NCBI GenBank assembly: GCA_029891345.1
Contig: CM057000.1
Span: 128,005,338-128,069,337, forward strand
Length of the DNA: 64,000 bases
Direction: 5' to 3'
Source of the DNA: Dryococelus australis
Lineage: Eukaryota; Arthropoda; Insecta; Phasmatodea; Phasmatidae
Numbering within the stretch: position 1 is the stretch's first letter; the number at the start of each line of letters is the position of its first letter. Below the pieces are notes generated by a model, which was given only the letters and a program-made list of their open reading frames with translations, was not told the origin of the DNA and did no database searches. Below, in pieces: positions 292 through 53,084 of the stretch. The translations under genes and the position numbers were made by a program.

Positions 292-2847
292 TAATCTTCT
301 CTGTAGGCAATTGATGTACAAACAGTGGTATTGCTGTAGGTTATGAATGATTCTTATCTATACAGGCGAGCACAAAACTTACAGCTCCTTGTCTGTGATA
401 ACGGAACATGTGCTATGCTGGCGTAAAGTACAGCACGCAACATAAAATTTCTTATTTGCAGCATCTGAAACCATGTGTTTGTTATTCGTGTCTGCAAGTG
501 TTAAACGGCACTATTAACAGACTGCAACTTAGCATTTTCGGAGGTGAATAAAACGCGGTGTCGTATTAATGGTCTGTTTTTTTTTTTCTCCCAAACCAAT
601 TGTAAAAATTCAACTCCAATATTCGCACACGACCTTTTGGTGATTAATATTCCACGCTTCAAACTGCGATGTAATTTTTTTTTTAAGTCGAAAACACAAA
701 AGCCAGAGATGAAATGAAATAACGGGAGCAGGAAATAGCAGACGGTAGCTACGTCTGCTAACTATCGTGGGCGACATTATCTCGTGTTTGTAAGCGCGAG
801 GTGATAACGAGGTGTTTTTGCTAATCCGTAATTGTCCAACTGTATTACTGGTGCTTACGCATGTAGCCTATTGGAACAAAAAATAAACTCCAACTTTTTC
901 TCTGCACATCATCTCCCACGTTATGTGACAGTTGAACCTTTACTACGAACGTAGAATTTTTCCAAATGTCAGTTTGTATTTATTGCAACTTCAGGATAAA
1001 CATTTCTGTATTCACATTTCCGTCGCCAAAGAGTGTTCTCGTTTAGATTATTAATTTTAATTTTGCATATGACAGGGAACATTTCTGGGAAAAAAAATTA
1101 GTTACGTAGATAATTATTACTTTCGAAAAGAATTATGTACAGTTTGTGACAAAAAAAACCGGAAAATATATCAATTATGCAACTAACTTATTAATTTTCA
1201 CTTGATTGTAACGACAGTGACAAAGCAATTTTTTTTTATAAAGTAGCAACATTAGCCACATGCTTTGGGACTATTACTTTTATCACAATTACGATCGTAC
1301 AGTGTAGATAATAGACGGTCTGAACATTGGGCATAAATGCTTAACTTACAGAAATTACGCAATCGGATCACACGTGTTAAGCTTGGCTCACAGCCGTCCG
1401 TCAGTCAGCCATCCATCGAATTTTTTCGTCCGTCAACTGAAAGCGACTCACAACATTCCCGTCGTCCGTTTATCAGTCGGGTCGGAAAATTTCCAGGGTC
1501 ACGTACCTAACAACTCGAACTTTCTCACACAGAGACAAATGGTTTCGGATGAATGTAATAAATGCATTCTCTTTCCCTAACATAATTATTCAGCATTTCC
1601 TCTGAAAACCTACAAGTCATCTTCAAACTTAGAAACGTAAACTACTTCGCTGCCTTGTGTATTTAAAAAGAAAAATATTCAGACAAAAACAAGTGACCGT
1701 TTTCTGACAGCCATGTTCAAGGATTGGTTGAAGATCACGTGACCGTCTGTCTTGGAACAAACATTATATCCATCATACTCTTCCCAAACCCCCAATAGAA
1801 AATAAAATTACTCAGGATGTTCATTTTGTTTAGTATCTGAAATTTTCACTGTGCAGTTCAACTTACAGCTTACAAATTTTACACAGAAGCTCGTCCCAAA
1901 ATCTTCAAAATGAAGTCTTAGTTATTTGACAAAATTTAAAGGCGTTGGTCACTGAAAAATGTGTTATTTTTAATTTGTACCATAATATTGAGCACATAAT
2001 TTTCGCATAAATACATGCAAAAATTACAATCTTGCTGTTTCAGAAATGTACAAGTAATGGAAAAAAAAGTTAAACGTACTAGTCCAAGAAGTCTATAAAT
2101 TGCACAAGGCAATGTTTTGTTTTGCAGTTAAAAAGAAATCCTGAAATAAGGAAATTCTTGAATAGCTTTTATTTGTAGGTGTCCCTAAACTCACGGAAAA
2201 TAAATTTTGCGAAACACACCTTAAAATGAATTAAGACAAGTTTTTTCAGTTGCCCTTTTTAAATTTTCTACACATAGTTAGGTTCGCTTTATTTTTGCAT
2301 TACGGAAACCGTGAAATTTTGACTTCGACATGCCATTTTGCAGAAATCGTGTGATTTAAAATAATTTTGTACGAGGAAAAGGTAGCCACGGATAACATTT
2401 AGCCTACAAATCGAGCAATATATAATACGAATATGAAAATAACAAACTCTTTCGTGCCAACGCCCTTAAAACAGCGAGTTTCGATGATGGCAGTTTTTAA
2501 TTTTGCATCGCTCTATACTGACTTCATTGCTCCTTAAATACGCTTTCTTTGTGTTAACTGTTAGATCTACAATTTTTTATTGCGTCCTTCATCACCCAGT
2601 TTTCATTGTTTATTTTTACCTTTACTCATCGCACTGCCCGCTTTCCCTTTACGTCAATCATGTGTCATTGTAAAGTAATTCCACCTGCGTTCTCTATGCA
2701 TTGCATGAGCCAGAACCTCATGGCAAAATCCATTTTCTGCCGAGTATTCCACCCGTCCTTTCCACCCGTCCTTTCCAACAGGACTTCTACTCTAGCCGCC
2801 CTTAATTTTTACGTACTCACGTACTCATGAGCGATTCCCTGACCGCC
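292..2847. other. AT-rich DNA without recognised genes
   Basis: Many stops in all frames and no coding homology. Around 2160-2340 there is a weak resemblance (GGTGTCC-TAAACTC-ACGG and TTTTGCG motifs) to the TIR element at 27.7-28.6 kb, so this could be an old diverged copy. A 14-bp direct duplication (CCACCCGTCCTTTC) lies near 2748-2775. Nothing else can be supported. Confidence 0.4.
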
Positions 2848-3623
2848 AAGCCATTCATACACGATACCCAATTTCCGCTACCTTCTGTTATACCCGTGGT
2901 TACAACAGAAGGCATAAAAGTTTCTGCAGCAGAAGAGAACAAAGAACCCGTCAGTTCATACCCACACGTTACCTAAAGTGCTAACGGAAAATTACAAATG
3001 GCAGTCAAACACAACTCGCAAATGGCAGACATTCCGCAGTTGGTAGGGCTACAAATTCAATCTAATATTATATGTAGTTGCTTTGTGGTACATTCCAAAA
3101 GTACGAAGATTTTTCCTTCCTGAAGATTTCATTTATTTAGGTTTCTGCGTACAACACTAGACTTAGACTATTAATATATAGAAAATGATATTAGTAAACG
3201 GCACTGCTTATGTATAAAAAACAAGATACTGTATTAACATTTATCTACAACGGACGTTGGTGCAACTAATTAAAACATTATTTAAATATTTAAATGATTA
3301 CCATCAACAGGCGTAATAATCAATATTGTGCTTTCCGTAGATAAACATGCTTATGCGATGAGGATACTAAAAGAACGCAAAAATATCACAATACTAGACA
3401 GAGAGTTTGGCACAGCAGGGAGGTTGAATTCAGCTTCTCTCGGGTGGGACACTAACACCATCTATCTCAGTGTCCCCCTATATAATCCGTGGGACCCTTG
3501 ACGAGGCCCCAACGCACCCTAATAACGTTAATAAATCTTTTGTGTATATGCGTGTGGGCAACATCACTCATGGAACATTAATCAAATTGTTATTTTAAAC
3601 CTCTAGTTTATAAGTTGTGTGTG

Positions 3624-3803
3624 CAGCTTAGTGGTTCGGTGCGTTGGTTTTGCAGCGTGTAATTTTTGGTTTTACAGTTCAAATCTCCGCCGTATTACGA
3701 ATATTTTTTTCTTTATTTTATGTGACATATTACTGTTGTTTTTATCACGTATGTTTTTGTTAGTAAACGTTTATTTCTGGAATTGGATTTGTATGAAAAC
3801 AAT
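3624..3803 (+). repeat. tRNA-like segment of X left arm, copy 1
   Basis: An A-box-like AGCTTAGTGG at 3625-3634 and a B-box-like AGTTCAAATCT at 3675-3685 are followed by CCGCC, an A/T-rich run, and TTATGTGACATATTA. The same block occurs inverted at about 10436-10600, and again in both arms of the second X copy. Alone it would be read as a diverged tRNA-derived SINE. Its fixed position in all four X arms suggests that it belongs to X. Confidence 0.55.
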
Positions 3804-5031
3804 TGCAACATGTGGTGCGGTACAGATAACGCATACGCAATGGAGCCACGTTGGGCTAACCACGTTGGGATAACCACGTTATTCCGTGAAGTGCAGCGTG
3901 GTGCGCGGCAATTCATGCACTCTGGAGTAAACACAATATCATAACAGCCCATATGCTGGAGTGACCACTGTTTATTCTGAAAATGTGCAAAACAATAACC
4001 TATACCAACTCAGTGAAATATCCCGGATTTTAATTTATGCACCACATGACATGATATTAAATTATGTGTGTTGCATTACAAATAAAAAGTACGTAACAAA
4101 TAATCACGGATTTAAAAACGATTCCACATGTCCAATAATATGCATGTCGCCAGAAGTACCAACTAATTTCCGATACAACCAAATCTGATCACCAACTTCC
4201 ATCTTCATCTTCTTACATGAATACATAGACGCATTACCAAACACACGAATTACAGCAGTATTGTCCATTTTGCCCTCATGTTAAATATACGGAGTGATAT
4301 AAATACACGTCGAGGACTTCACACTTGTTTGCACTTGTGTGTGTGTTGCATGTAACAGGATGTTGTTATCAGTAATGTAATAAATCTGTTTGTGCTCGGC
4401 TGTGCTCAGTTTAGAACCCAGAATGAAAGATGCGTGGAAACTCACCTCAGACAACACCACCTTCGTTGCAGGCAAACGATTATTTACCCCACCCACAGCT
4501 GTGAAACTTAATGCACTAAACTACCCGCATATGTTTAATTATTTGCAACTGAACATGTGTACAGGAGCGATAGGATGAAACGTGCATATTCAGAATAAGT
4601 GACAGACGTGTCAAATACAGCTTAAAACTGATTTATTCAAAATGTGCCAATTCAAAATATCTGTTTCAAATTGAGCTGGAAAAATAAATAAATAAATAAA
4701 TAAAAAATCCCTTAATGGCAATGAGCAAGAAAAGAAACTGTGAACTAAACTGCCGTTAGGAAGTGGTCATGGGTAACGGTCATAATCAGAATCATCACGT
4801 GACACTTAATGAACAGTCTGACTAAATGCACTTGAAATTAACATAGCTCTCTCAAAAATGAAATGTCTTGAAAATAGTTCAGAAAAATGCTACTGTCTCA
4901 AACGATGAAACACTTGACTTCTCTCTCAGGTTAACTATTGCAAGCTGTTAGAAACTAGAACACCCTAACTCTAATTAAAATTCCTCTGCTGCGTTCAAAC
5001 TGTAGAACGAGCATCCTAGCCTTACGTCTAG
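3804..5031. repeat. Direct repeat A1 (candidate LTR)
   Basis: Closely matches 9066-10435 in the same orientation. Both copies begin TG(C/T)AACATG. Similarity runs to the shared ACGTCTAG. Near the start is a 14-bp minisatellite (CCACGTTGGGCTAA type) with about two and a half units here and three in A2. The pair brackets minus-strand gag-like and integrase-like remnants, which is the layout of an LTR retrotransposon. No clean CA end, primer-binding site or 5-bp target duplication is visible, so LTR is a hypothesis. A1 holds roughly 200 bp near 4080-4370 that A2 lacks. Confidence 0.5.
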
Positions 5032-7411
5032 CGTAGTTGAAGGTTGGTGGCATAGAGAGCGAATTTTCAAACGGCCCGCTCATCCTAACCGTATGCTGAG
5101 CTCTCCAGCCAATCGAAGTACAGAATTTGAACCTGTTAGCCAATCGCAAGGCTTCCTGACTACCGATCTAAAATGACACACTCCAAACGGCCTAGATTCC
5201 TATTCCATAGAGTTACGGGTCTCGTAGAAGTTAATTTAAAATGTATAAGAAAATTAACATTAACATAAAAAAAAATTGAGGCATAAAATTAAGCAAAATA
5301 TTAAGTTATTAATTAAAAATACAAACGAAATAAATCTAGTTATATATTTCAATTAAACATTAATTATTTCCGTTCGTACATTTAAGTTTAAATATTATAC
5401 CCATATGAAAAAATTATGAAAAAATAAAAATAATAAAAAAATTTAAAAATCAAATATATGTGAAACATAGGTAAAATTACAAGAATTAAGCATGATGGTG
5501 TTCAATATGTGAAACAAATATAAATTATTACAAGCAGGTACAGATAGTGAGAATGTTGTGTTATAGACAGCACCTCCTGGATAGAAATATCTCCTTTATG
5601 AGATGTCTAGACATAAAAACAAAACAATGGAACAATGCATTCTGAATGTGTCTGCGTATGTGCTCATATCCAATAGTTTGTTGCAGCAGGAATCAAAAAT
5701 CGCATTTAGTTACACTAATCATAAGAAACTGAAAAAGAAAAACACACAATATGGTACAAATTATATAGCAACGCATTGGGTAAGGAATCATTCATTGTTG
5801 AAAATCTGAAAATAAAAATACCCAAGTTCTTTTAGGTGGTAACTGGCTACTGTCTCTGTTACTTTTTTTATTCACGTTTTAGCATATATTTTTAACCAGT
5901 CTGCAGCTGCGTGTTGTCTGCTCCGGTAAGATGATTCGCAGAGCAGTTCGGGCGTCCTCGCCAAACTGTCGAAGTAACACGAGCCTTGCCCCGCGCAAAA
6001 AAATAAAAAATTGCGCCAAACTATCTCCAGTCTAGAGGCGCGCATACAGTAGACAGGAGTCGTGCGTCGATCTCTCTGAAGAACTCGTCTCGTGATTCGG
6101 CGACTTACTGGATCAGGTACAGGTCCCACCTGTACAAACAGTCCTGCACCTCCTCGGACAACACATCGCCTCAACTCGTACTGAAGATCGTCGCACAAAA
6201 AATCGCTCGTGTCGAGTCTCGACAGTCTCTAGCAAAATACGTGTGTTTACGTGTGTTTACATTCACTGGCGTGTGTACTGATGTGCGTGCCCGTGGTTCA
6301 CACCAAGTATCTGAAGTTGCAGCACCATCAATCTTTGGTGATAAACAGTTCACTAGCGACACTTGCTCGCACTCACTTCGTGAATTCTTTACGTTGCACT
6401 TAAATGTTTACTAGGGTATTCACATGACCACTACCTAAAAAGTTAGCTTACCTAACTACTACGTAGGCAGTATAACACAGAATACACAACACTAGAAGGG
6501 TAATATATGCATGAAGAACATAAAAATTGCATCAATAGGAAGCCACGCCAGAAAACTGTAGGCATTTGAATTGTAATAACGACATCTCATGTTGCCAAGA
6601 CCATACAGCAACGTATAAACAAAACAACGAAGAATAGATGACACAGTATAGCTCTCAACACGAACTTATTCTACTATGTACAAACATCACAACGTTCAAA
6701 AACTCCAGCCGCACAAAGCAAAGCCAAGAAAAAATATTATCAGCACAACAAAACATCGCTACTTTAACCTTGGATATCTGAGAAGACTTCTATACCAATT
6801 GGGTTACTTTGAGTCACCAGCAACGTAGAATAAACCACGATATGTACAAATCAGTACTATACTGTTTACGTGTGTTTTGTCTGAGCACAGTTGCTTTATT
6901 TGTCCTCAAAAGACCCTTGGGTCCGTCTGTTTGTTTTCAGTTACGTCAGATCGAGTAGCGTTCGAGACAACGAGGCAGGAGTCTACTTAGCGATTTTCGC
7001 AATTGAAGCAGCTTAATGTCTCTTCTAGGCAGCTTAGATCGTCTTCTCACTGTTTAGGATCCCTAGTAACTAGGCAGCAAGCATCACTTGTGTGTCGAGC
7101 AGATTTCTCCTCTCTCAGACGTGTCATAAAAGCTCTGGCACGGCGATAAGCACTGTTTACATTTATTTCTCTCTCAGTATTCCTCGAAGAAACGCGGTGC
7201 GGGGCTCTAAAAACAATCTTGGGAGGTAACTAATTAACTTTCATGGTTCATCGAGGTGTACCAGACACACTAGACGCGCACTCTTTACGTAGCTTCATGT
7301 AAACAAATCCTCTTACCGAGTACTCACTACTTATAAATCATAATAATGCCTTCCGCTGACCTACATTCTACAAGGCGGCAACTCTCTTCGCCTTAATACT
7401 TTTGTTTAAAT
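5032..7411. other. Unassigned interior of X copy 1
   Basis: Very AT-rich at 5230-5560, then of mixed composition. No domain is recognisable in either strand, including a 108-residue minus-strand frame at 5872-6198. If A1 and A2 are LTRs, this is the 3' part of the retroelement, where remaining pol or an extra frame would lie, but nothing supports that directly. Confidence 0.35.
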
Positions 7412-7597
7412 TCAAGCACGCGCTAGACGGTCCTGTTCACGAGATCGATAAACTCGTAACTTGCTCAGATTTTGCCTGCCAACTACTTCATTAGTGCCTG
7501 GGATAACTAACCCGTAACTGTTGTGAAATACTTCTCTCTGTACCTCCAGTGGTCCAGAATATAATGGCATAAGCTTTCCCATTAAATAATCGACCAT
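7412..7597 (-). pseudogene. Integrase C-terminus-like fragment (Gypsy type)
   Basis: A 61-residue minus-strand frame resembles the far C-terminus of Gypsy-type pol: a GPxxV-like core (SGPLEV), a tract with an aromatic residue, then a basic LRVYR-like end, as in the GPY/F module after the integrase core. No reverse transcriptase, RNase H or integrase catalytic core is visible upstream, so most of pol is deleted or unrecognisably decayed. It lies downstream of the gag-like remnant on the same strand. Function would be DNA integration in an intact element; this fragment is dead. Family assignment rests on a short stretch and is moderate. Confidence 0.5.
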
Positions 7598-7858
7598 AAT
7601 TGACCATAGTCAAAACAAGCTGACATGGCTGCAGTTTATTTATCTTCGACTTCTTTGCGTTTCTGGCTTTGTCTCTCAGCTGCTAAATGCAATATACGTC
7701 TTGCCAGTAGCATAATTTCTTCTGTTAACTTCTATGACTGTTCATCGCAGTGTGCAATCCTCGGAAGTTGTGGCAGCTTACTAGGGTCGAAAATAACTGA
7801 TCGTTGGCCTGTCAATGTTTCCCAAGGGGTAAAATAGGTGCTCTCATGAATAGTGTGA

Positions 7859-8881
7859 TCAAAAACTTACATCGTAAATATCTCCGTGCGGAACAATTCT
7901 TGCATTACTTTTGCGATCTGCGATGCGAAAATATTGACAAATTTTTTTTTGTCTTCCTGTTTTCCACGTAGGACAGCGTTTCTTGACGTAATGTTTGCAG
8001 TCACATGTGCGGCGACTGCGAAAAACTTTAGGCTTGTTCCGGCGCTTCACGCCGCAATTTCTGCTCTCTTTGCTCACGTGATCACGTGTGTGACACACGT
8101 GGCAAAACTTGCGTTTTCTCCTGAGCCACTGGGAGCGATCTCTACTCGTCTCATTTCTTTTCATCTTGCTTCACATCTCAGCTCGTGTTCTACGGCGGCC
8201 TCTGTCCGTCTCTTCTTTCTCCATGGATATTTCTGTTTGAGTATCCTGCAGTGAAATATAGTGATACATTTTCGCATCGTAGCTTCGTTCACGCAGCTGG
8301 TCACGGAGTGGATTTTTCTGCATGGTGTTCAGTTCAGCAATTACTGTGCTATTCCTAAGCTCAGTACTAGTAATTAGAGGCTGCACCTCCCCACGGACAA
8401 GTTCATGCATACCACTTACTTTGTCTGGCCTCGAAATTGTAGCAACATTTAACTCAGTGCTTTCTTACTCGCTTTTCACCGCATCGTTTCCTTTTCCTGA
8501 TAGCTGCGCATGCATAGGCAGTCCTTTCTCTTTGGGGATTGTAAGACCTGTATCTAGCGGCGAAACTGCGGCACATTCAGACATAGGAATATGTTTTTTC
8601 CTTTGCACTGACTCTTTATGTGCGGGATTTTCATCAACGTCAATTTGTACTACTACATAATCCGGCCGTGTTTCCGGTAAAGAATGTTCCTTTGGTGGTA
8701 TGTAAACAGGACATGACATATTTAGCTTCAAGGTCTGTTCCATCTCTTTTCCAAAATCATGTATTATTTCATTCATCTGGGATTTAAACTCAGTAAACTG
8801 CGTTATTATAAACTCTGAGATTTGTTGAAACAGTAAGGGTGTTAAATCTGCTGTTTCTGCTGTCTCGTCCTTTTCAAACAC
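7859..8881 (-). pseudogene. Retrotransposon gag-like remnant, interrupted
   Basis: Three minus-strand frames follow each other: 8881-8465 (acidic, coiled-coil-like N-terminal part), 8410-8171 (charged) and 8164-7859 (very basic). The last holds a CxxC-x4-H-x7-C cluster (CHVC...H...C), like a nucleocapsid zinc knuckle but with abnormal final spacing. Acidic part, basic part and Cys/His cluster in this order fit a Gag protein. Stops and frame changes separate the pieces. The first frame begins about 185 bp from repeat A2, consistent with gag lying just inside a 5' LTR. The weak point is that no capsid domain can be identified by eye. Confidence 0.45.
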
Positions 8882-9065
8882 AGTGGACTCTACGTTTCTG
8901 TAATTAATAGGTGTTCGTTTCTCTCAGTCGGTAGGGAGTACACTCGCTTTTGCATAACTGGTGAGGTGTTTTTGGCACTTCTACGCATTTACTGATTTAA
9001 CATCGCTTACTGTAGATTCAGCGTGTCGTAAGCCCTTACATTGTGTGCCACTTTTAAATTTATTA

Positions 9066-10435
9066 TGTAACATGCGGTGCGTTACAGATAACGAATACAC
9101 ACGTTGGGCTAACCACGTTGGGCTAACCACGTTGGGCTAGCCACTCTATTCCGTGAAGTGCAGCGTGGTGCGCGGCAATTCGTGCACTCTGGAGTAAACA
9201 CAATATCATAACAGCCCATATGTTGGAGTGACCATTTTTTATTCTGAAAATGTGCAATACATAAACTAGGCCAACTCAGTGTAATAACCAGAACTTTAAT
9301 TTATGCATCACATGACAGAATATTAAATTATGTGTGTTGGCAATACTTGTGATTCAGTAAGCGGATAAAAAGAAATAAATACTGTTCCAAATAAATCTGT
9401 CTGTGATTGGCTGTGCTCAGTTTAGAACCCAGTATGTAAGATGCGTGGAAACTCACCTCAGATAACGAACCCCCTTCATTGCAGGCAAACGATTATTTGC
9501 CACACCCACAGCTGTGAAACTTAATGTATAAAACTACACACATACTAATTCACTTGTATAATTATTTGCAACTGAAAATGTGAAGGAGGGGGGGGGGGGG
9601 GATAGGATGAAACGTGCATATTCAGAAGAAGTGTCAGACATGTCAAATATAGCTTGAAACTTATTTACTCAAATTTATTCAAAATGTGCAAATTAGAAAT
9701 ATCTGTTTCAAATTGAGCTGGATAATTTATATTTAAAAAAAATAAAAAATCCCTGCATGGCAATGAGCAAGAAAACAAAATAGTGTTCAACTAATCTGCC
9801 GTTAGGAAGTGGTCATGGGTAACGGTCATAATTTAAAATCCTCACGTGACACTTATTGAACAGTCTGACTAAATGCACTTGAAAATAATGCAACTCTCTA
9901 AAAAACAAAATGTCTTGAAAATAGTTCAGAAAAATGTAACCGTCTCAAACGGTGAAACACTTGACTTCTCTCTCAAGTTAAATTATGGTTAAAGATTGCT
10001 GAAGCTAATTTAGGCGCCTTGCCAACATGGCGTCCGTAGAATGTTCTACGCCCATGGAGTAACGTAACAAATTCCAAAATTAAATAAAATTAAAACTTGG
10101 TGAAAAAAACAGTTTTGTAATTAAATACGAGATTATAGATGAAGGCAGGGCGGTGACTTATAGAAGAAAGCGGAGGTCGGAAATATATGCTGATCAGGGG
10201 TACAGTAGTTCTTTATGTAGCTCAACGGCTCATGGACGTTATAGATCTAGCTAACCACCTATGCTCCTAAACAGCTGCTTAAATAAAATAATTCGGAGAG
10301 CTAAACTTTCTCAAACTCGAAGTAAAACACATATTATAACTATTGCAAGCTGTTAGAAACTAGAACACCCTAACTGTAATTAAATTTCCTCCTCTGCGTC
10401 CAGCTGTAGTACGAGCATCCTACCCTTACGTCTAG
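9066..10435. repeat. Direct repeat A2 (candidate LTR)
   Basis: Partner of A1 in the same orientation, starting TGTAACATG and ending in the shared ACGTCTAG. It carries about 355 extra bases (about 9980-10337) between two blocks that are contiguous in A1 near 4930, evidently an insertion, though I see no convincing terminal repeats on it. A 14-base G run lies at 9588-9601, where A1 has none. If the enclosed gag remnant belongs with these repeats, A2 is the 5' LTR of a minus-strand retrotransposon. Confidence 0.5.
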
Positions 10436-10600
10436 AAGTTCTAGAAATATGCCTTTTCTGGCAATAACTTAGATTACAAAACTCACTAATGTGTCACATA
10501 AAATAACTAAAAATATTTCGTTACGCGGCGGAAATTTGAACACTAAAACCTAAGACTATCCTACGCGAGCCAGCGCAACAACCCACTGCGCTAAAAACAC
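10436..10600 (-). repeat. tRNA-like segment of X right arm, copy 1
   Basis: Reverse complement of the block at 3624-3803. On the minus strand an A-box-like TAGCGCAGTGG (10583-10593) precedes a B-box-like GTGTTCAAATTTCC (10529-10543), then CGCCGCGTAACG and TTATGTGACACATTA. It is the best preserved of the four copies. Confidence 0.55.
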
Positions 10601-11016
10601 GACTGACTAAATGTGCTATGCTAACAGATATATATATACGATAAGAGTCCATAGTTACTACTTGTTTTTTAAGTTGTGATTATTGTTTTATTATGATCGT
10701 GGGTGTTTCAAACGTTTCCCATCACTTACACGTACATTAAGTTTCATTTCGTACATAAATACGGTTTACAGAACCCGTATTTTTTTCGTAAACGGATATA
10801 TACGTCTCGAGGTGTTACTCGAGAGTCCGCCATATTGTCTGTTGCAGCTCCGTGGGTATAGCAGGAATTTAGAACACGTTCTATTACCGTTTCGGGTATA
10901 CCCATGGGTACGATAACTGGTACACGGGAGCAGAAACGCTAGCAGAAAATGGGTATCAAAACTGCTATGGAAATGGGTATCGTGTAGGGCCGACTTTCGG
11001 GACCTGGCTTGTTATA

Positions 11017-11303
11017 GGCTGTTCACTGTAAAGTGACCACTTTTGAGGCACTAGTTCCTTTTTTTTTTTTCCTATCAGACATTATTTATCCTCCCTCTGC
11101 TTTTTAAAATCAATATTGTAGAGTAAATAATAAATATATATATATGTATATATACACATATATAGGCACACACATATATATATATTTTTTTTTTCTTCAC
11201 CGGACTCAAAAGTTAACGCCTAAGGCCACAATACAATACATTTATTGAATATTATTTCAAATGAGAGGGCTAAAAAAAGTGTTCATTTTACGGTGAATGG
11301 ACC
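11017..11303. mobile_element. TIR MITE M1, family GGCTGTTCAC, subfamily I
   Basis: Left end GGCTGTTCACTGTAAAGTG, preceded by TA; right end, read inverted, GGTCCATTCACCGTAAAATG, followed by ATA. The interior contains a TTAACGCCTAAGG block and an A/T dinucleotide microsatellite (11130-11185). It is one of eight full or partial copies. TA flanks suggest a Tc1/mariner-type non-autonomous element. It starts about 20 bp outside the right end of X copy 1. Confidence 0.75.
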
Positions 11304-27696: not shown

Positions 27697-28557
27697 ACAG
27701 TAAAAAAATTTCCCTTAATTTTTACGGAAAAGTGCTGGTAAAAATTTATCCAGAGGTGTCCGTAAACTCTCCTTAAATAACGGACACATTGATTTTCAAA
27801 AACGGATTTTCTGTAAATTTTGCGGAACCTTTCCGTTATTTCACAATTAGTTTTATGTACTTCCAATTTAAAATCAATAGGTAATGAAAAATTCTTTAAT
27901 TTATGTTACATGGGTGAAAAAAAAAATTTAAAAGTTAAAATATTTAATACTTAATCAATATTTGAACCCGAGTCAAGAAGTCCACGACTCCAACCACAAT
28001 TTTTTTTTCTCGTTTTCTTTCATTTGACGTTGTTGTGCCATTTAGCGTGGACACTGGAGTCTCTCCAGTGTGACAAACTAAGTGAAGGTCTGCCGCATCG
28101 GAGGCGCTGGGGTGCTAACCCGTGACCCTCCGACTACAGGTCGGCCACCCTACCCCTGAGCTATGAGAGCAGGACTCGGCTCAAGCCCAACTCTCGCACA
28201 ATATCAGCGGTATAACTTGTGTATTTCTACTGCTGTCACAGAAGCATTTTTTCAGTTTCTGTTAAAGTTGGTGTATTTAAGTGTTGCTAAATGTTACAGA
28301 CGCCTGAAGCTAATTTTTAATGTTTGAAGCGTGAATAACCTTACCTGCCGCAGAAACGATAATTTTCTGGCTACGGTGGCGAAAAAAAACTTCGTGTGGG
28401 TTCGGCATTGTTTGTCCCAGAAACCCTAAGCTATAGCAAATAAGGCAACCTTCCGTGTTTTGTATTTACGGAGTTAGTACCATTTCTCATCATTACGGAT
28501 TACGTTTCCGTACATTCGCTCTACATTTCCGTGAACATACGGGAATTTTGCACAGTG
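27697..28557. mobile_element. TIR element (ACAGT...TTTCCC...ACGGA ends)
   Basis: Left end ACAGTAAAAAAATTTCCCTT followed by TTTTTACGGA. The right end read inverted is ACTGTGCAAAATTCCCGTAT followed by GTTCACGGA. The interior has several ACGGA/TCCGT motifs. It encloses a SINE3 copy (28004-28185). No transposase is present. Confidence 0.5.
28004..28185 (-). mobile_element. SINE3 copy a
   Basis: On the minus strand a tRNA-like head (A box CATAGCTCAGGGGTAGGG, B-box region GGGTCACGGGTTAGCACCCC) is followed by a short body and an A-rich tail (the T run at 28000-28008). It shares head and body with copies at 44957 and 47875. Confidence 0.7.
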
Positions 28558-42575: not shown

Positions 42576-43157
42576 ATACTTAGGTAGGTTTTTGCAAAAC
42601 TTGATGTACGATTCCGGTGCAAAATCTAAAAATGCGGAAGCTTTTTACTTTTTAATAAAAAATTATCTATTAAATAATTAAATGATAAAAATATATAGTA
42701 TAAAAAACGACGGATTAATTTTTACTCCGCCGTTTCCTACATAGGTAATGTTATTGTAAAAAAATTTCACCCTGCTGTTACATTATTTTTAAAATATTGT
42801 TTTTATATACCACATAAGCTTAGTCAGTAAAATGTCTACACCAAATACGATTTACGTGTATGCACTCCTCAGAATATTTATTTCTCTAAATTCTGTTGAT
42901 AATAAATTCGGATTTCAGATTTGGCATATACTATTTCTGTGTAAGTAATTTGGCCGCCGGCTCCCCAGAAACAGACGTATATGCTTGAAGGGTTAATAAA
43001 TTACATCGTCCACTCTAGCCTATATACACACGACTATCCCGAAAGCCAAATTTTTCCAGTCTGTGTTTCGCCACATCAAAGTTACAACAGAAATACGCCT
43101 ACTTCTGTAGAACTTTCATTTTCGTAATTTCCAATCTGGAAAACAACTCTGTTTATA
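42576..43157. other. AT-rich DNA, nothing recognised
   Basis: No homology or repeat seen. Confidence 0.3.
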
Positions 43158-43490
43158 TGCTGTTCGCGGTAAAGTGAGCATTTTTGAGGTGGTAGTTAAA
43201 CTCTCCTTTCAGTTATTTTGTATCCTTTAACCACCTTCTCAAATAAATATTGTCATGTAAGTTTTAAACACAGGGTGTATAGTCAACCAAACTCGAAAGT
43301 TACCGTCTAAGGTTAAAATAAAATATATTTACTTACTCTATCCCAAAAGTGAGGGCTTTCAAAAGTGCTCACTTCACAGTGACTAGACTATACAAAAATT
43401 GAGGGCTTTCGAAAGTGCTCACTTCACAGTGAATAGCCTATACCAAAAGTGAGGGCTTTCAAAATTGCTCACTTCACAGTGAACAGCCTA
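43158..43490. mobile_element. TIR MITE M5 with triplicated 3' end
   Basis: Left end TGCTGTTCGCGGTAAAGTG after TATA. The right terminal segment GAGGGCTTTCAAAAGTGCTC...CACAGTGA-TAG-C-TATA occurs three times at exact 50-bp spacing (starts 43351, 43401, 43451), each including the end and adjoining TATAC/TATAA bases. The interior is subfamily I (CTCGAAAGTTACCGTCTAAGG). Confidence 0.85.
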
Positions 43491-43771
43491 TACCAAAATT
43501 TCTGCTAAGTACCCGAATTTGTCAATGTTTACGTGAAGCATCATAGCAGAGCACACGAAAATATGACATGTTACGTACGCCAGAATGAGTACAAGCTCTT
43601 TACGGTTAATTCATAACTTCTGAATCCCTGCTTATTAACTGCGTTCCTTCATATGTTCTATCCTTCCACAACATGTAAAATTTACAACTTCCTGGGCCTA
43701 GTGACTTCATGCATGCACCAGTCCCGTTAAAATGTTAAACAGTTACGGACAGTGATTTTTTTTTCTCCAAA

Positions 43772-44236: not shown

Positions 44237-44956
44237 TTTTTTGAGCTAACAAACTTCCCTCCCCCTCGTTCGCCGTACGTAGTAAATTCTTGTATGCTCT
44301 ACGTAGTAAATTCCTGGCGCGTTACGTGTAAAGCGAAGTCATTGAGAAATGATATACTCAATGGTGAAGTCATTATACTCCCAGCCTTAGTGAGAGAGAG
44401 AGGCAGAGAACGTAGCACAGCGGTTGTTCCTTAAGCCGTCCCTGCACGACAACCATACGCACAACCGAAGACATAAAAGTTTCTATGGCAGAAAAGAAGA
44501 ACGGCTGCATAAGTTCATATCTACGCGTTACCTGAAGTGCTAAAAGAAAATTGTAAATGGCAGGCAACAACAACTCGCAAATGGCAGATATTCCGCAGTT
44601 GGCACGGGTACAAATGCGATCAGATGTTATATGTAGGGGCTTTGTGGTACATACAGAAAGTATGAAGATACTTTTTTTGTTCCCTGAAGACTGCATTTAC
44701 TGTATTTAGGTTTCTGAGTACACGTGCTAGACTATTAATGTAGGTGTAAAATGATGTTAGCAACTTAGTTACTTATGTACGGAACACTAAGTACTGTTTT
44801 CACATTTATGTAAAAGGGGACATTTTTACGCGACTAATTAAAAACCTTTTTTTTTGGATTATTTAAGCATTTATCCTTAACGATCATAATTATCAATCTT
44901 GTGCTTTACGTAATTAAACAAGCTTATAAGGTTAGAATACGAAAAGATGGCTCCGT

Positions 44957-45146
44957 GAGTGCCCTTTCCCCATAGCTCGGTGGTAAGGCGCCCGCCCATC
45001 CTGTGTAGTCGAGAGCCCGTGGGCCCACGCCCCGGATCTCCTTCGGCGGATCTTCAGCTCGCCTGTCGCACTGGAAGTTGGTCTAACTTAAGCTCGTCAA
45101 CATCATTTCGATACAACAACAGCAACAAAATACGAGAAAAAAAAAA
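44957..45146 (+). mobile_element. SINE3 copy b, in X left arm
   Basis: tRNA-like head (CCCCATAGCTCGGTGGTAAG A-box region), body with GGATCTTCAGCTCGCCTGTC and CTCGTCAACATCATTTCGA, ending in A10, then G15 (45147-45161). X sequence resumes right after at about 45162. Confidence 0.75.
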
Positions 45147-45161
45147 GGGGGGGGGGGGGGG

Positions 45162-45330
45162 TCGGTGCGCGGTGTTTGCGCCACTTTTTTTTTTTTTTTT
45201 TTTTTTTTTTATATCAAATCTCCGGCGGGTAACGAAATTTTAAATTTATTTAATCTGATACATCATTGGTGTTTATAATTGATGTATGGTTAAAGACGTT
45301 CATTTCTATAATATATTTGTCAAAATGCAT
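45162..45330 (+). repeat. tRNA-like segment of X left arm, copy 2
   Basis: TCGGTGCG and ATCAAATCTCCGGCGGGTAACG align with the block at 3624-3803, interrupted by a T run at 45186-45210. Confidence 0.45.
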
Positions 45331-46269
45331 TAATACGCAAGTAACTGCACAGTCAATCGACTGCATGTAGTGTTTTAATTTAGCTTTGGCGTGTATTATT
45401 GCTGTTAGACAAAGATATTCTAGAAATAAGCGTTTTCTTGAAATCTACAATAATACAATAAAGAGGTGAAATTTGTGACTTTGTTAGAACTGGAACTACT
45501 TATCCGATTACAAAAATTCTTTCCCAGGTAAGTAGTCCGGGCCTTGTGGATGAACATGACGTTATGACACCAGAGGGAAATTTTAAATACAAAAAATTTA
45601 AATAAACATAAAACCATTTAATTACTATTTTTGTATGTACTGTACATTCATACTCAAAAGAAATGCTACGAAATGCATGTTCGAATCAATTCATTAAAAA
45701 TAACGTTTACATTAATTTTCTTACTTTAACTTACAATTACGGCGAAATAATTATATGCACGTAAAATTTTTGTAGAGAATTTAATTAGCTACTAAATTAT
45801 ATTTTTGCCATACCTGTATTAGTTTAGCAAGGAATGTTAATATTTTACACTTAATTTTAATTGTAAATTTGAAATATTGTAATAAAAATTATCTTAAAAA
45901 TAATACATGGATGCACAGTAATTGATTTTGTTCACGATTTTGTTATTATTTAGAGTTTATTTTGCAAACAAGTGATCTTATAGTTTTTTTAGCATTAGTT
46001 TAACCATTAACAGTTATTAAGACATACTAAATAACATTGTTAATATATATTTTTTGAAAATGCTAGCCGACAACCGTAATTTAATTTACGAATTTTTTAT
46101 TTATTTGTCTATATTACAAATTAATTATTTTACTTTTTATTTGATTATTTACCATAGATTATACCAATGTTGATTTAGTCAAATAGCCAATTAAAAAATA
46201 TATTTACCACTAACAGCTACGACTAACAGTATATTTGGAGTAAAATTCAGTATGTTGCATACGTAAAAA

Positions 46270-47392
46270 TCGACCTCTTGGCAAATTGTTACAAGATGCA
46301 TCGTTAATTATGTGGGATTAATGTACTATGTGCCATAGAGCTCATATTGAAACAGTCAACCGGACGTTCCAAGATCTCAGAAGCTCAAATATACTCATGG
46401 GTGGTGTCACTTTTGTTTTTGCTTGTGATTTTCGCCAAACACTACCTGTCATAGCAAATGGAACACGTGTATACATTTGCAAAAGCATGACTAAAATCAT
46501 CTCCGTTATGAGGTTCAGTTCAAACACTTAGTTTGCGCACTAGTATGAGAGTCCATTTAAGCGAAAACAATGATAACAGGTTTCCACAAGAATTGCTAAA
46601 GCTTGGAGAAGGAAGATTCCCTTTTCCGAGAGCAAAAGGTGGTACCGTAGCGCTGAAATCAAACTTGGTGCTGCATTGGGTCGCAAAGTCCACGAATTAG
46701 CACATCTTATAGAAGCAATATATCCCGATCTAGGAAAATTTATTGAAAAGATACCATCATCGGCTCTGTTTAAGGGCAATAGTAGCTGCCAGAAACGATG
46801 CAGTAAATGAAATAACTTCAATGATATTACAAGAAGTTCCCTGCGAAGTTAAACATTACAAAACCATAAATACCATAGCCGACATCGAGGACAGTGTTCA
46901 CTACTGTCAAGAATATTTAAATTAATTAAATCCTTCTGGCCTGCCGCCACACGACCTCAAATTAAAGATTGGTATCCCAGTAATGCTACTACACAGATTA
47001 AACCCACCTAATATGTCTAATGGCACGAGAGTATTGATAAAAATTTTTTTTGCACAACCACATCATCGAAGCAATAAATTTAACTGTGCCTGGCGCCGGA
47101 CAGCTAGCTCATGTTCAACGTATCACTATGATCCCAGGAGATCTGCATATTTCTTTCAAGCGGTTGCAGTTTCCGGTGAAGGTGTAATTTGCTCTCACAA
47201 TAAACACGTCCCAGGGACAAACTTTCAAATGTGTGGGAATAAATTTGAGCAAGAGATGTTTTTGTCATGGCCAATTATATGTCGGGTTATCTATAGCCGA
47301 AACTACAGAAAACCAATATATTTTGCTACCAGAAAATTATAAAACAAGAAACATATTATGCAGAGAATCTATAACAAGTTAATGTAAATTTA
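46270..47392 (+). pseudogene. Helitron Pif1-type helicase C-terminal remnant
   Basis: Plus-strand homology to the SF1 (Pif1-like) helicase domain of Helitron Rep/Hel proteins, from motif II to the C-terminus. A Walker B-like LIMWD is followed by a stop (TAA, 46319-46321) where the catalytic Glu is expected. FACDFRQTLPV near 46420-46450 matches motif III (usual Gly replaced by Cys). SQGQTF (47209-47226) and HGQLYVGLS (47266-47292) match motifs V and VI. At least three frame changes and several stops intervene. Walker A, the HUH endonuclease and both Helitron ends are absent. The intact protein unwinds DNA during rolling-circle transposition. Family identification is firm; activity is excluded. 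Confidence 0.85.
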
Positions 47393-47754
47393 ATAAAACG
47401 TATGTAAAAAAAAATGCTGTGAAATAAGAGGGTTATATTTCCTATTTACGAAAAAACGAAGTTAATTTGAGGATTATGCTTCCCTGTACTGTTAACGTAA
47501 ATTTAATAAAACCTATGAAAAAATAAGGAACTAGACGGCTGCGATTTAAAATATGTTAAAATTAATTTTTCTTACTTTAAGTTGTAATTGTGGAGAAAAT
47601 ATTATAATTACTTTTAAAATGTAAATTTGAAATTGTGTAATAAGAAATAATAATAATAAAATATATTAATGCTATTATTGATTATATATATAGAATCATA
47701 AATAGATGTCCAGCGATTCGCGCGCAGGTAATGCTAGTAACTTATACTATAAAC
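47393..47754. other. AT-rich tail of helicase remnant
   Basis: A GTAAATTTAATAAAAC block occurs at about 47384 and again at about 47501, both followed by TATG and poly(A)-like sequence: a direct duplication of the 3' flank of the helicase frame. No Helitron CTRR end with hairpin was convincing. Confidence 0.4.
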
Positions 47755-47870
47755 AGCAATAATGTATCACATAAAATAGCTTAAAAAATGTTGTTACAAG
47801 GCGGAGATGGGAACTTTAAAACCTAAAATTACGCCATGCGATTTCGAGCACTAACCCATTTTTTTTTCTG
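47755..47870 (-). repeat. tRNA-like segment of X right arm, copy 2
   Basis: Reverse complement of the X arm block: ATGTATCACATAAAATAGC, then GGCGGAGATGGGAACTTTAA. It ends in a T run where a SINE3 begins. Confidence 0.5.
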
Positions 47871-48120
47871 TTCGGTTGCTGCGTAGCTGCTTGCGGCTTT
47901 CACCGTAGTTGTATGTGTCGTTTGAAATTGTGACGTTGACGAACTCGAGTGAGACCTACTTGCTGACAAGTTCCCAGTCCACGTGCACGCGACAAGCGAA
48001 CTGAAGATCTGCCGTGGGTGGGCCGGGGGGGCTAACCCACGACTCCTCGCCTACAAGTCGGCCACCCTACCCCTTAGCTATGGCGGCAGAGCACCCCCTG
48101 AGCCACACGCACAACTTTCA
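47871..48120 (-). mobile_element. SINE3 copy c, in X right arm
   Basis: Minus strand: head with CCATAGCTAAGGGGTAGGG, B-box-like GAGTCGTGGGTTAGCCCC, body GCAGATCTTCAGTTCGCTTG, poly(A) tail (T run at 47861-47869). X sequence resumes at AAATGTGCT. Confidence 0.75.
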
Positions 48121-48238
48121 AATGTGCTGTGTAAAAGGTTATACAAGAGGTGAGAGTCCAGAGTTATCACATATTTGTTAAGTTGTGGTTATTGTTTTAT
48201 TATGACGGTGGGAGTAAATTGAAACTATTCCCGTTGTA

Positions 48239-48460
48239 GGCTGTTCGCGGTAAAGTAAGCACTTTTTAAGACCCTCAAAACAGACATTAACCCCTAATAA
48301 ATATATTTTATTACAGTCTCAGGCGTTAACTTTTCAGAGAGATGAAATGTATACGCTGTGTTTATTAGTTACATTGCAATGTTTACACTAAAACGCTGTG
48401 GAAAGGTAGAAATTAAGTGAAAGGGAAAACTTAGCAGAGCCTTAAAAAGTGCTCACTTTG
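48239..48460. mobile_element. TIR MITE M7, inside X, one end clipped
   Basis: Left end GGCTGTTCGCGGTAAAGTAAG preceded by TA. The right end reads AAAAGTGCTCACTTT and then passes directly into X (GTATATAAATACG), so the outer 15 or so bases are missing. The interior block (GGCGTTAACTTTTCAGAG) is subfamily I but inverted relative to M1, M5 and M8. Confidence 0.7.
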
Positions 48461-48736
48461 TATATAAATACGTTTAACAGACCCTCTTATCTTTTCGTAA
48501 ACGGGCATATGCGGCTTGAGTTTGTTATTCGGGTGTCGGCCATCTTGTCTGTCGCGGCTCCATGGATATAGCAGATATTTAGAACACGTTCTATTACCTT
48601 TCTGGGTGTGCCCATGGGTACGAAAACTGTTATTCCCCTGGAGGGGGCTGGAATGTAACCCACACGGGAGCAGAAACGCTAGCTGAAGATGGGTTTGAAA
48701 ACTGCTGGGGAAATGCGTACCGTGTGAGGCCGGCTT

Positions 48737-49430
48737 TAGCGCCAGCATGACGGCTGGCATTGGCGAGCACGAGATAATGCCTCCGACGACGGCACCAGCG
48801 CGCACAGACCGCAGACGGCATATCTCACGGGCGCGACCCGGGGGCCACGCATTAATATTCCTTTCGGAGCGCCGTTTTCAATATCCGCACGGGGAAACCA
48901 CTTTGGCGGAGAACGTGTTTCCATCTCGGGGCTCGAAGCCCGGGGCCGCGGCGCGCTAAGGGTGCAAATCGCAGCGACGCAGCCAGGACTCATTTCGCTC
49001 GCCCGTTTGTCAGGGGACGGCGAGGTGGTCTGCGTCAGAGTTGCCAACTTTCTCGAGAGAAAGTCTCTAGATCGATATACGGAAAGCAACGGGAAAATTT
49101 TACTATATGGAAATTTTTGTCTCTTTCAAATTATAGTTACAGAAAATATAAAATGTATATTTGTTTTATCAGTATAAAATGTGATTTATATTGCTCGTCG
49201 CATTGCCATGCGTTAATAATTATATGTATATGTTATATAAGTTATGTTCATTTCACATTCAGTAAATTATATAACTAACAAGACCTCTTCAACTCAATAT
49301 TTGTCACAAAAAATTTAACCTACATATAAGAATTCATTTTCCGTGTAAAAAATAAAAAATTTATTGGATATTACAACAAATTTTTTTCGAAGCCACAAAA
49401 AAAAACTTACCACCAAAAGTTATTAATTAT
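48737..49430. other. GC-rich stretch, then AT-rich DNA
   Basis: 48737-49060 is GC-rich and CpG-containing, immediately outside X; overlapping open frames on both strands reflect composition. 49060-49430 is AT-rich. No homology. Confidence 0.35.
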
Positions 49431-50126: not shown

Positions 50127-51328
50127 ATTTATACTTAATACGATTTTGTAAATGTATATTGTCCTGTTACGTTATAATACGGTTTAAAATAATACTGTCT
50201 TTTAGTTCCAACCAGATGCTTATTAACTTTTTCTCGATCATTATAATAACATTTATACGAACCTTATTCATCCAAATTATCAGGCCAAATCTGAATTAAA
50301 TTTAAAAAAAACAGGCAAAAGCAGCCATTTTCATATACTTCGCTGCCATATTATATATATATACCGGATGAGACTAAAATATGTAGAAAGTTAGGTGGCT
50401 TTAGTACCTTTTAGGCTTATATTAATTTTAGCCTCAATCCGTAACATAATTATGTATAGTATATAATAAAACATTTAAAGTTAAAGAAAACCCCATCGAA
50501 ATATTTTAAATTACGTATTATTTAGATTTGCGAAGAACTACACAGTGCGTGCTCTCAAACTATATAAACGGATACTTTGAATACATTTCCAGTGTAAAGG
50601 TTCATAAAATTTATTTTATGTGTCGACCAAACCGTATCGTTATTCCCGCAATATACAGCCCACACACACGACTTCCTATAAAAGATAATCACATGTAACG
50701 AAAGATTTAATATGAGTGACGAGCTATCCCCATGTACTATCGAGGTGTAGGTACGTATTCCGGTGAAATGAACAATCCTCGAGACACAAAAGTGCGATAC
50801 TCTCAAAATGCGAAAAAAATCCAGTTTTCCATCTGCCATCTGCCACCAGAATAATTTTTTTAAATAACAAACTTTTCCACATCTCACAAATATGAAATCT
50901 GACCGCCAGGACATAACTGAAATCGCCACATCTGGGGGTAAAATTCCCAAGTTGGCAACTCTTCTGTGCGGGAAAAGGACCACTCGGTTGAAAAATAGGG
51001 GAAGGGGGGGGGAGGTTGTTGTAGCGGATTGGCTTGCAATATCCTACCCCATCTGCCGAAGTGCGAACGTATATGGGCGAAAAGGATTGAGGAAGGGCGT
51101 GATCGAGGGAGGATTACTTGACACCATCCCTGCCAGCGAAGCACGCCCGGGAATTGAAAATGCTGCCATCATCGCCTCCCAAATGAAGCAAGTTCTACGA
51201 ACTTTATGGCTCAGTATATCCGTTGATGCGCTGCCTTGATAACTTGCTCGGCGCCCTTTTTCGTTCGCTAGCCGGTTTTGAGAGGATCGTAGTTGTCGGT
51301 AAGAAGGAGGCAGTTGCCACCCACTTGG
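50127..51328. other. Unassigned DNA before the satellite
   Basis: AT-rich to 50890, then moderately GC-rich, with overlapping frames on both strands (50892-51239 plus, 51144-50884 minus). None has a recognisable domain. Confidence 0.3.
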
Positions 51329-52982
51329 TATACCCTCGACACAGTAGAGTATTTAAGTACCCTCGACACAGTTCTTAAGTACCCTCGACACAGCAGAGTA
51401 TTTAAGTACCCTCGACACAGCAGAGTATTTAAGTACCTCGACACAGATTAGTTAAGTGCCCTCGACCCAGAGTAGTTAAGTACCCTCGACACAGTTCTTA
51501 AGTACCCTCGACACAGCAGAGTATTTAAGTACCCTCGACACAGATTAGTTAAGTGCCCTCGACCCAGAGTAGTTACGTAACCCTCGACACAATTCTTAAG
51601 TACCCTCGACACAGCAGAGTATTTAAGTACCCTCGACACAGATTAGTTAAGTGCCCTCGAACAAGAGTATTTAAGTACCCTCGACACAGTTCTTAAGTAC
51701 CCTCGACACAGAGTAGTTAAGTACCCTTGACACAGTATTTAAGTACCCTCGACACAGAGTAGTTAAGTACCCTCGACACAGAGTTCTTAAGTACCCTCGA
51801 CTTAGTTTAGTTAAGTGCCCTCGACCCAGAGTATTTAAGTACCCTCGACACAGAGTAGTTAAGTACCCTTGACACAGTATTTAAGTACCCTCGACACAGA
51901 GTAGTTAAGTACCCTCGACACAGAGTTCTTAAGTACCCTCGACTTAGTTTAGTTAAGTGCCCTCGACCCAGAGTATTTAAGTACCCTCGACACAGAGTAG
52001 GTAAGTACCCTCGACCCAGAGTAGTTAAGTACCCTCGACACAGATTAGTTAAGTGCCCTCGACCCAGAGTATTTAAGTACCCTCGACACATTAGTTAAGT
52101 ACCCTCGACGCAGAGTAGTTAAGTGCCTCGACCCAGAGTATTTAAGTACCCTTGACCCAGAGCAGTTAAGTACCCTCGACACAGAGTAGTTAAGTACCTT
52201 CGACACAGATTAGTTAAGTGCCCTCGACCCAGAGTATTTAAGTACCCTCGACACATTAGTTAAGTACCCTCGACGCAGAGTAGTTAAGTGCCTCGACCCA
52301 GAGTATTTAAGTACCCTTGACCCAGAGCAGTTAAGTACCCTCGACACAGAGTAGTTAAGTACCTTCGACACAGATTAGTTAAGTGCCCTCGACCCAGAGT
52401 ATTTAAGTACCCTCGACACATTAGTTAAGTACCCTCGACGCAGAGTAGTTAAGTGCCTCGACCCAGAGTATTTAAGTACCCTTGACCCAGAGCAGTTAAG
52501 TACCCTCGACACAGAGTAGTTAAGTACCTTCGACACAGATTAGTTAAGTGCCCTCGACCCAGAGTATTTAAGTACCCTCGACACAGAGTAGTTAATTACC
52601 CTCGACACAGAGTAGTTAAGTGCCCTCGACACATATTTCTTAAGTACCCTCGACACAGATTAGTTAAGTGCCCTCGACCCAGAGTAGTTAAGTACACGTG
52701 ACGCTGTATTTAAGTACCCTCGACACAGAGTATTTAAGTACTCTCGACACAGAGTAGTTAAGTACCCTCGACCCAGAGTTTCTAAGTACCCTCGACACAA
52801 AGTGTTTAAGTACTCTCGGCACAGAGTAGTTAAGTAACCTCAACCAAGAGTATTTAAGTACTCTCAACCCACAGTATATGTGTCCTCGGCACAGAGTAGT
52901 TAAGTACGCTCGACACAGAATAGTTAAGTGCCCTCGACCCAGAGTAGTTAAGTACCCACGACACAGACTAGTTAAGTACCCA
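51329..52982. repeat. Minisatellite array, about 24-bp unit, 1.65 kb
   Basis: About 70 units of the type TTAAGTACCCTCGACACAGA with GTAG, varying by small indels. Higher-order periods are superimposed: 165 bp (three near-identical blocks; CCTCGACACATT at 52081, 52246, 52411) and 142 bp (CTTAGTTTAG at 51801 and 51943). No gene. Minus-strand frames of repeated CRGYLNTLGRG type are translations of the repeat. Confidence 0.97.
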
Positions 52983-53084
52983 AAGATGAAATGGCTTAGC
53001 GGTTCCTCTTATGTCGACATATCCCTTCTCTGATTGGCTGTGGGCGGCTCTGGAACGAGCCTTGTGTCTGACTAGCTATATTCC

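Follow-up and report, generated by a model that had tools for sequence, protein, structure and literature searches.

A dispersed two-armed transposon of putative PIF/Harbinger type in Dryococelus australis, with a tRNA-like centre as a likely landing site for retrotransposons

Introduction

Two loci in a stretch of Dryococelus australis DNA carry a pair of similar arms around interiors that differ entirely. The stretch, hereafter the window, is 64,000 nucleotides long (GenBank assembly GCA_029891345.1, contig CM057000.1; C8:128005338-128069337 in genome coordinates). This raises the question of whether the arms belong to one mobile element, here called X, and, if so, whether the interiors are cargo that X carries or later arrivals that landed in it. 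The initial annotation had regarded X as an undescribed element with different cargo at its two loci that could be matched to no known family. Our analysis shows that the repeat at the two loci is one transposon family and disposes of the idea that X captures cargo. As far as checked, X represents a new family within a known type of element, and its centre is unusual. Taken as a whole, the explanation that we consider very probable is that X is a non-autonomous PIF/Harbinger element, that its apparent cargo consists of later nested guests and that an A box in its centre is a landing site for retrotransposons.

Results

X is a dispersed family with paired arms

All matches between the arms of the two window copies were collinear and in the same orientation, with E-values of 1e-14 to 5e-79. 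In pairwise alignment, the left arms at 2902-3374 and 44461-44947 were 73.6% identical over 493 columns, and the right arms matched in three blocks: 10465-10553 with 47738-47826 (77.5% over 89 columns), 10581-10720 with 48093-48232 (74% over 143 columns) and 10744-10997 with 48453-48737 (73.0% over 285 columns). These alignments, at 73-78% identity, confirm that the arms are paired at two loci in the same order and orientation. The initial annotation was also right that the four outer ends share an inverted end sequence, since AAGYCGKCCCTACACGATACC is present at each of them, inverted, with 1 to ~4 differences per end. The X elements proper run from AGCC to GGCT and occupy 2849-10995 (copy 1) and 44434-48735 (copy 2), and the arms hold extra small inserts.

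We searched 3,415,067,245 bases (3.415 Gb) of the genome with the two arms, which returned 2627 (left) and 2459 (right) first-look candidates, and the best 40 of each were scored. Sixty-two X loci were fetched: the left-arm list supplied 39, the right-arm list 21 and facing end patterns the other 2. Both arms lay in order on one strand in 49 of the 62 (31/39, 17/21 and 1/2, respectively); a further 8 had the left arm only and 5 the right arm only, and some of these 13 were perhaps cut by the limits of the fetched sequence. X is therefore a real two-armed element, as had been proposed. The candidate explanation that the arms are two unrelated repeats, which would never be found as a pair genome-wide, is rejected on the strength of the same 49 paired loci. 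Allowing up to three mismatches, the left-end 30-mer had 646 matches in the genome and the right-end 30-mer 420, against 0 for the reversed control of each. The family is scattered over the genome, with copies numbering from hundreds to a few thousand.

The arm searches of the assembly that had been suggested thus recovered a family, from which a consensus of 1506 bp was built using 10 of 13 two-ended copies; three longer ones were omitted. It starts with AGCC and has a 26-bp terminal inverted repeat (TIR) at 92% identity, and its left 560 bp and right 420 bp have no long similarity except at the ends. No long frame was found in the consensus, in which the longest stop-free frame has 92 residues, and a frame listing gave short frames only in X. 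Identity of the 62 copies to the consensus averaged 87.6% (range 78.8-93.0), and the copies therefore look old. Copy 1 in the window follows the consensus over 1-544 and, after a 132-bp insert, over 546-808, and resumes past its interior with 907-1502. Copy 2 follows it over 47-526 and 673-936, and then over 936-1027, 1048-1184 and 1205-1506. Both copies tile one consensus, and the arms are therefore the two halves of a single element.

Some members of the family have departed from this structure. A subterminal X unit of ~89-102 bp has grown into minisatellites in loci L011 (about 1378-3100), L147 and L153. The X copies L013 and L046 resemble each other in both flanks (84-86%), and the probable course is that X entered a larger repeat, which spread afterwards. 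At L149, the right and left ends of X are joined within a short stretch, possibly as a fused or rearranged miniature.

X inserts at a TWA target

With the element read as AGCC...GGCT, identical 3-bp flanks were found in 22 of 34 two-ended copies (12 TAA, 9 TTA and 1 GTA), a count in which the compound or mis-anchored rows L009, L030 and L040 were retained. Shuffled flank pairings gave a mean of 10.7 identical pairs and never reached 22 in 10,000 shuffles, and when flanks of 2 to 9 bases were scanned at offsets from -3 to +3, just one other setting reached at least 5 of 34. Flank position -4 was C in 18/34 copies and position +4 was G in 18/34, a preference for GC-TWA-GC. Copy 2 in the window retains its duplication, TTA at 44431-44433 and TTA at 48736-48738, both on the plus strand. 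In addition, the joined flanks of the 34 copies were searched against 295 kb of sequence, and one empty site was found. At 55903-56051 of the window (plus strand), a single TAA stands opposite the TAA-X-TAA of X copy L010 (C17:69141700-69147000); 122 of 149 columns are identical to the joined L010 flanks, and the junction is spanned. Both the target duplications and the empty sites that had been proposed as a check were therefore recovered, the former in 22/34 copies and the latter once.

According to a passage in PMC4482050, PIF/Harbinger elements have a TWA duplication and a TIR whose first base is usually A or G, and ~93% of their TIRs are shorter than 60 bp. In X, 21 of the 34 copies have an identical TAA or TTA duplication, the 26-bp TIR begins with A and lies below 60 bp, and the paralogous empty site is consistent with a 3-bp duplication. 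We file X as PIF/Harbinger because of its TWA duplication, palindromic target, short TIRs starting with AG and empty site; judged from these features, it appears to be a non-autonomous element of the PIF/Harbinger (PHIS) type, presumably moved by a transposase of that class. Candidates for the PIF/Harbinger transposase domain PF13359 numbered 4158 in the host, and all 150 that were scored exceeded the cut-off.

The initial annotation could match X to no known family; its duplication, target, TIRs and empty site place it with PIF/Harbinger (PHIS), although no transposase was linked to it. X may be undescribed. According to its abstract and main text, the host genome paper gives 63.29% repeats, mostly unclassified, and most repeats without database identity (PMC10268593), and a word search found no 'Harbinger' in that main text.

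The centre of X contains tRNA-like units and an insertion hot spot

Consensus positions 619-1076 form an imperfect inverted repeat (78% over 470), the arms of which align at 84% over 206, and this centre folds in silico at -244.7 kcal/mol, a value for a single sequence with no shuffle comparison. Potential promoter motifs were scored against the A and B box consensus. The left unit holds a perfect A box (TAGCTCAGTGG, consensus 635) and a perfect B box (GTTCAAATC, consensus 687), and the mirror unit on the right has an A box and no perfect B box. ARAGORN detected no tRNA when run on the window and on the two consensus units, and in five X loci Rfam reported none up to E=5. The term 'tRNA-like' therefore rests on the boxes together with the pattern of insertions and flanks described below, which suggests that the central units originated from tRNA.

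We scanned 72 loci and the window for insertions of more than 40 bp and counted 22. Ten of these lie at consensus 634-646, between TAGCTC and AGTGGG, and all ten are long or short interspersed nuclear elements (LINEs or SINEs); the binomial P is about 1e-15 under uniform insertion, which need not hold. Two of 24 rows had been dropped, one being an artefact in L019 and the other a minus-strand duplicate of the window. The insert in copy 1 that resembles a long terminal repeat (LTR) element and the left-arm SINE of copy 2 were not counted, since X sequence is missing beside them. Among the 62 copies, a break at 630-650 is present in 13, positions 620-670 are intact in 37, and the other 12 fit neither description. 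The LINE inserts are variously truncated and occur in L011, L028 and L046 (95-97%), with relatives in L023 and L027 (81-83%), and inserts ending in a tRNA-headed SINE occur in L021, L032, L051, L063 and L069. The longest LINE copy, in L046, matches Exo_endo_phos (2.1e-8) and RVT_1 (6.2e-22), and two other pieces had no match. Two features of site-specific non-LTR retrotransposons are thus present, namely a constant insertion position in a defined target (634-646) and an endonuclease combined with a reverse transcriptase (L046).

Occupied A-box sites are also seen in the window. In the right arm of copy 2, a SINE at 47832-48092 (minus strand), 73% identical over 158 to the SINE of L051, sits in the mirror A box. 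In the left arm, a SINE-like sequence with homopolymer runs at 44952-45199 (plus strand; tRNA-type head CCATAGCTCGGTGGTAAGG) apparently lies at the A-box site as well, as judged by reading, with consensus 527-672 missing; it is 67% identical over 126 to the right-arm SINE. A further copy of the A-box SINE was observed at 28062-28177 of the window (80% over 116).

The LINE and the SINE precede B boxes elsewhere in the genome

A search with the LINE 3' end gave 1184 candidates, of which 40 were scored. One of these was L011, and the other 39 were fetched and 36 of them scored for their flanks; L131 and L138 were left out for their end pattern and L134 for having no A-tail, and the tails of L090 and L098 look mis-set. 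A B box matching at least 8 of 9 positions was found 20-75 nt downstream of the LINE in 29/36 flanks, against 6.7 in shuffled sequence and 10 in the reverse complement, and perfect 9/9 boxes numbered 11, against 0.4 and 0, respectively. X itself accounts for only one of the 36 flanks (L099). The 3' flank starts with AGTG in 13/36 and with ATGG in 5/36, and because these starts vary, the target comprises a set of sites that resemble the A box and is not a single fixed sequence. At L132 (C3:8854140-8854340), the stretch after the LINE 3' end reads like what we take to be the 3' part of a tRNA-Pro gene, and the LINE may have landed in a genuine tRNA gene here.

For the SINE, 20 of 40 scored places were fetched and 17 scored, the remaining 3 having no A-tail; the box was sought 15-80 nt downstream with a shuffle control alone, and the tail of L119 looks mis-set. 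A B box of at least 8/9 occurred in 15/17 flanks (shuffled 3.1) and a perfect one in 7/17 (shuffled 0.1). The LINE sample was chosen by similarity to the copy borne by X and the box search was permissive, so that the exact rates are rough; the contrast of the flank B boxes with the controls is not. It is likely that the LINE group and the SINE integrate at one position of the polymerase III A box, TAGCTC|AGTGG and its variants, in various tRNA-like sequences (tRNA-derived SINEs, at least one apparent tRNA gene and X), and that X spreads such landing pads by the hundreds to thousands as an expandable safe harbour for a site-specific retrotransposon.

We also observed a tandem SINE array with 136-bp spacing at C2:35623631-35624459, which perhaps arose by repeated insertion of the SINE into its own A box.

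The interiors of the window copies are nested insertions

Copy 1 begins with the left arm (2849-3396, plus strand; consensus 1-544), which has its TIR at 2849 and is 91% identical to the consensus. The 132-bp insert that follows (3397-3528) adjoins a CTA repeat and is apparently also present in the X copy at C10:119596177-119597084, the sole other scored match that spans the full 956-bp query. The left tRNA-like unit (3529-3803, plus strand; consensus 546-808) has a degenerate A box at 3624-3634 (CAGCTTAGTGG) and the B box GTTCAAATC at 3677-3685. Next comes a nested LTR-like element (3804-10435) with direct repeats at 3804-5031 and 9066-10435, and the copy closes with the right tRNA-like unit and right arm (10436-10995, plus strand; consensus 907-1502), ending in GACT at 10995. 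The direct repeats, of ~1.2 and 1.4 kb, are 83.6, 88 and 91% identical in three pieces, and the second holds extra sequence at 9982-10336. At the insertion point, 98 bp of X (consensus 809-906) are missing. The repeat at 3812-5031 was found at at least 39 other scored places in the genome, and the only protein match in the interior was a sub-threshold one to a Tf2-1-like SH3 on the minus strand (E=0.01).

Copy 2, on the plus strand, consists of the left arm (44434-44951, up to consensus 526), the SINE-like sequence described above, the left tRNA-like unit (45200-45443; consensus 673-936), a nested Helitron-like unit (45444-47737, plus strand), resumed X sequence (47738-47831; consensus 936-1027), the right-arm SINE, X sequence again (48093-48235; consensus 1048-1184), a nested copy of a different short repeat, its ends being of the GTAGGCTGTTCGCGGTAAAGT type (48236-48452), and the right end (48453-48735; consensus 1205-1502).

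Helitrons begin with TC, end with CTRR and insert between A and T without duplication, and they encode a RepHel protein. The guest in copy 2 begins with TCTACAA and ends with CTAG, and it is inserted exactly between A and T of the consensus ..GGCAA|TAACTT... It holds a PIF1 helicase remnant within 46322-47379 (PIF1 7.7e-10, Pif1_2B 8.4e-10). PIF1 domains were the only part of such a protein above the cut-off, in 2 of 5 scanned pieces, in a scan that included no separate search for Rep. This interior was also found at at least 39 other scored places, at 80-85%. One homologue, L140, matches it from TCTACA onward and not before, in an alignment that does not reach the 3' end. None of the 78 places of the two interior families lay within 10 kb of a listed X place, as compared by eye against lists of X that are partial. 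The guests split the same 1.5-kb element, each at its own position (about consensus 808-907 and 936). The interiors are separate families, and with this the cargo reading falls: both are later nested insertions in X. The observation that the interiors differ was correct, and what had been called cargo is a nested LTR-like repeat in one copy and a Helitron-like unit in the other.

Other repeats were seen in the window. An abundant second short repeat with ends like TATAGGCTGTTCACGGTAAAGTGAGCACTTTTGA occurs at 11011-11044, 36312, 37894, 38297, 43153-43500, 48236-48452 and 49890, with one copy inside X copy 2 and one beside X copy 1. At 51313-53029 there is a 24-bp minisatellite of CCTCGACACAGAGTAGTTAAGTA type with dozens of copies.

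Discussion

In the mechanism that we propose, a PIF/Harbinger transposase would act in trans by binding the ~26-bp ends of X, which would insert by cut and paste at a palindromic ..GC-TWA-GC.. target and duplicate TWA. The two copies in the window appear to be old insertions, split afterwards by the arrival of other mobile elements. The A box of the left unit serves as an integration site for the LINE group and for the SINE, both of which would also enter TAGCTC|AGTGG-like positions of other tRNA-like sequences. The LINE may insert by target priming once the A box has been nicked between C and A, and the SINE may be mobilised by the same or a related LINE.

Several results weigh against this account. 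The 3-bp flanks are unequal in 12 of the 34 two-ended copies, and those of copy 1 in the window are CCA and TTC, with no target duplication left. An autonomous PIF/Harbinger partner would encode a DDE transposase and a Myb/SANT protein between the same ends. Searches with TIR patterns yielded no element that combines X ends with a transposase, so that the partner with a transposase in its interior, which the initial annotation had proposed to look for, is not among the X ends read. A TIR pattern designed to avoid the usual X ends gave 14 exact matches, of which 4 were X copies already fetched and the other 10, when fetched, all started with X arm sequence; in one, L075 (C4:65396730-65397190), only the first 193 bp of 461 are X. 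A further 16 right ends were fetched, and all begin with X. In the least X-like of these, L148, only the terminal 140 bp of X are present, and inspection by eye found no second X end or recognisable transposase frame within 3.2 kb. Non-X sequence follows 140 bp of X in L148 and L157 (C11:43523160-43526400) and 193 bp in L075; these are probably truncated copies, and they are the nearest thing to a relative of X with another interior.

A different class for X must also be weighed here. X could be a member of another PHIS group, NuwaII, whose target is C|TNA|G, or of a different superfamily whose target is of the TA or TTAA type, which taken together we consider unlikely. NuwaII is the main alternative among the classes and fits almost as well, a further point against our assignment: C and G beside TWA are enriched, in 18/34 each, as is described for NuwaII in a passage of PMC4482050. 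However, TWA accounts for 21 of the 22 identical duplications, and the exception, GTA, departs at the first base and thus does not agree with TNA either. The superfamilies with TTAA or TA targets were rejected, as they leave the matched TAA/TAA and TTA/TTA pairs unexplained. Far less probable still is that X is a cargo-exchanging transposon whose arms mobilise various captured interiors. The interiors of the two window copies do differ, as that idea demands, but uninterrupted X copies are ~1.5 kb long and have no cargo, each interior recurs at its 39 or more other scored places, one of them has exact Helitron-like junctions inside X, and, where places were compared by eye, the cargo families had no X arms.

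Two rival readings concern the nature of the centre. That it is not derived from tRNA at all, with the resemblance to A and B boxes a coincidence and the hot spot an artefact that arises from weak sequence, would agree with the negative ARAGORN and Rfam results and with a right unit that has no perfect B box. This is improbable, since the left unit holds both boxes, at consensus 635 and 687, and the same LINE and SINE elsewhere precede B-box flanks well above controls. A more serious contender, which we do not favour but rate not far short of an even chance, is that the centre is a separate fold-back element or an inverted pair of SINEs that jumped into the ancestor of X and is not a functional part of it. 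The centre has a long inverted repeat of its own (619-1076) flanked by the X arms, and 10 of 40 scored matches of the unit were not placed in listed X copies, as judged by eye from list positions only. On the other side, no fetched X copy was seen that cleanly lacks the centre, and ~30 of the 40 matches lie in or next to a listed X, again by eye and with a query from the X consensus that biases the result towards X. The best 40 matches, which are dominated by X, gave no proof of a stand-alone tRNA-like unit outside X.

If our reading of X as a non-autonomous transposon with an A-box landing site is true, one transposon class would supply landing sites to another in a large genome, and, of more weight, the LINE/SINE pair would be a clear example of retrotransposons that read a polymerase III promoter motif as a target across many tRNA-like hosts. 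This A-box targeting by a LINE and a SINE is the novel part of our findings; a literature search among open-access papers found no such pair.

Compared with known systems, X resembles PIF/Harbinger (PHIS) transposons and their miniature inverted-repeat transposable elements (MITEs) in its TWA duplication, its palindromic AT-centred target and its short TIR starting with A, and, like the MITEs, it would be a non-autonomous, high-copy derivative. X is longer than most MITEs, and those meant here are Tourist-like. Unlike these, it has a central fold-back of ~460 bp made of tRNA-like units, and its transposase is unlinked. The likeness to Helitrons, in ends, A/T insertion and PIF1 remnant, belongs to the decayed guest in copy 2 and not to X. 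With regard to the A-box site, Dada transposons likewise use tRNA genes, and in some of their families a putative duplication of TAGCTC lies in the A box, according to a passage in PMC3706591. The retrotransposons Dewa and TRE5-A also have landing sites associated with tRNA genes: that of Dewa is a tRNA-Leu spacer, and TRE5-A inserts close to tRNA genes but outside them, as a passage of the same paper describes (PMC3706591). Unlike in Dada, Dewa and TRE5-A, the inserter here is a LINE with an Exo_endo_phos endonuclease, together with a SINE.

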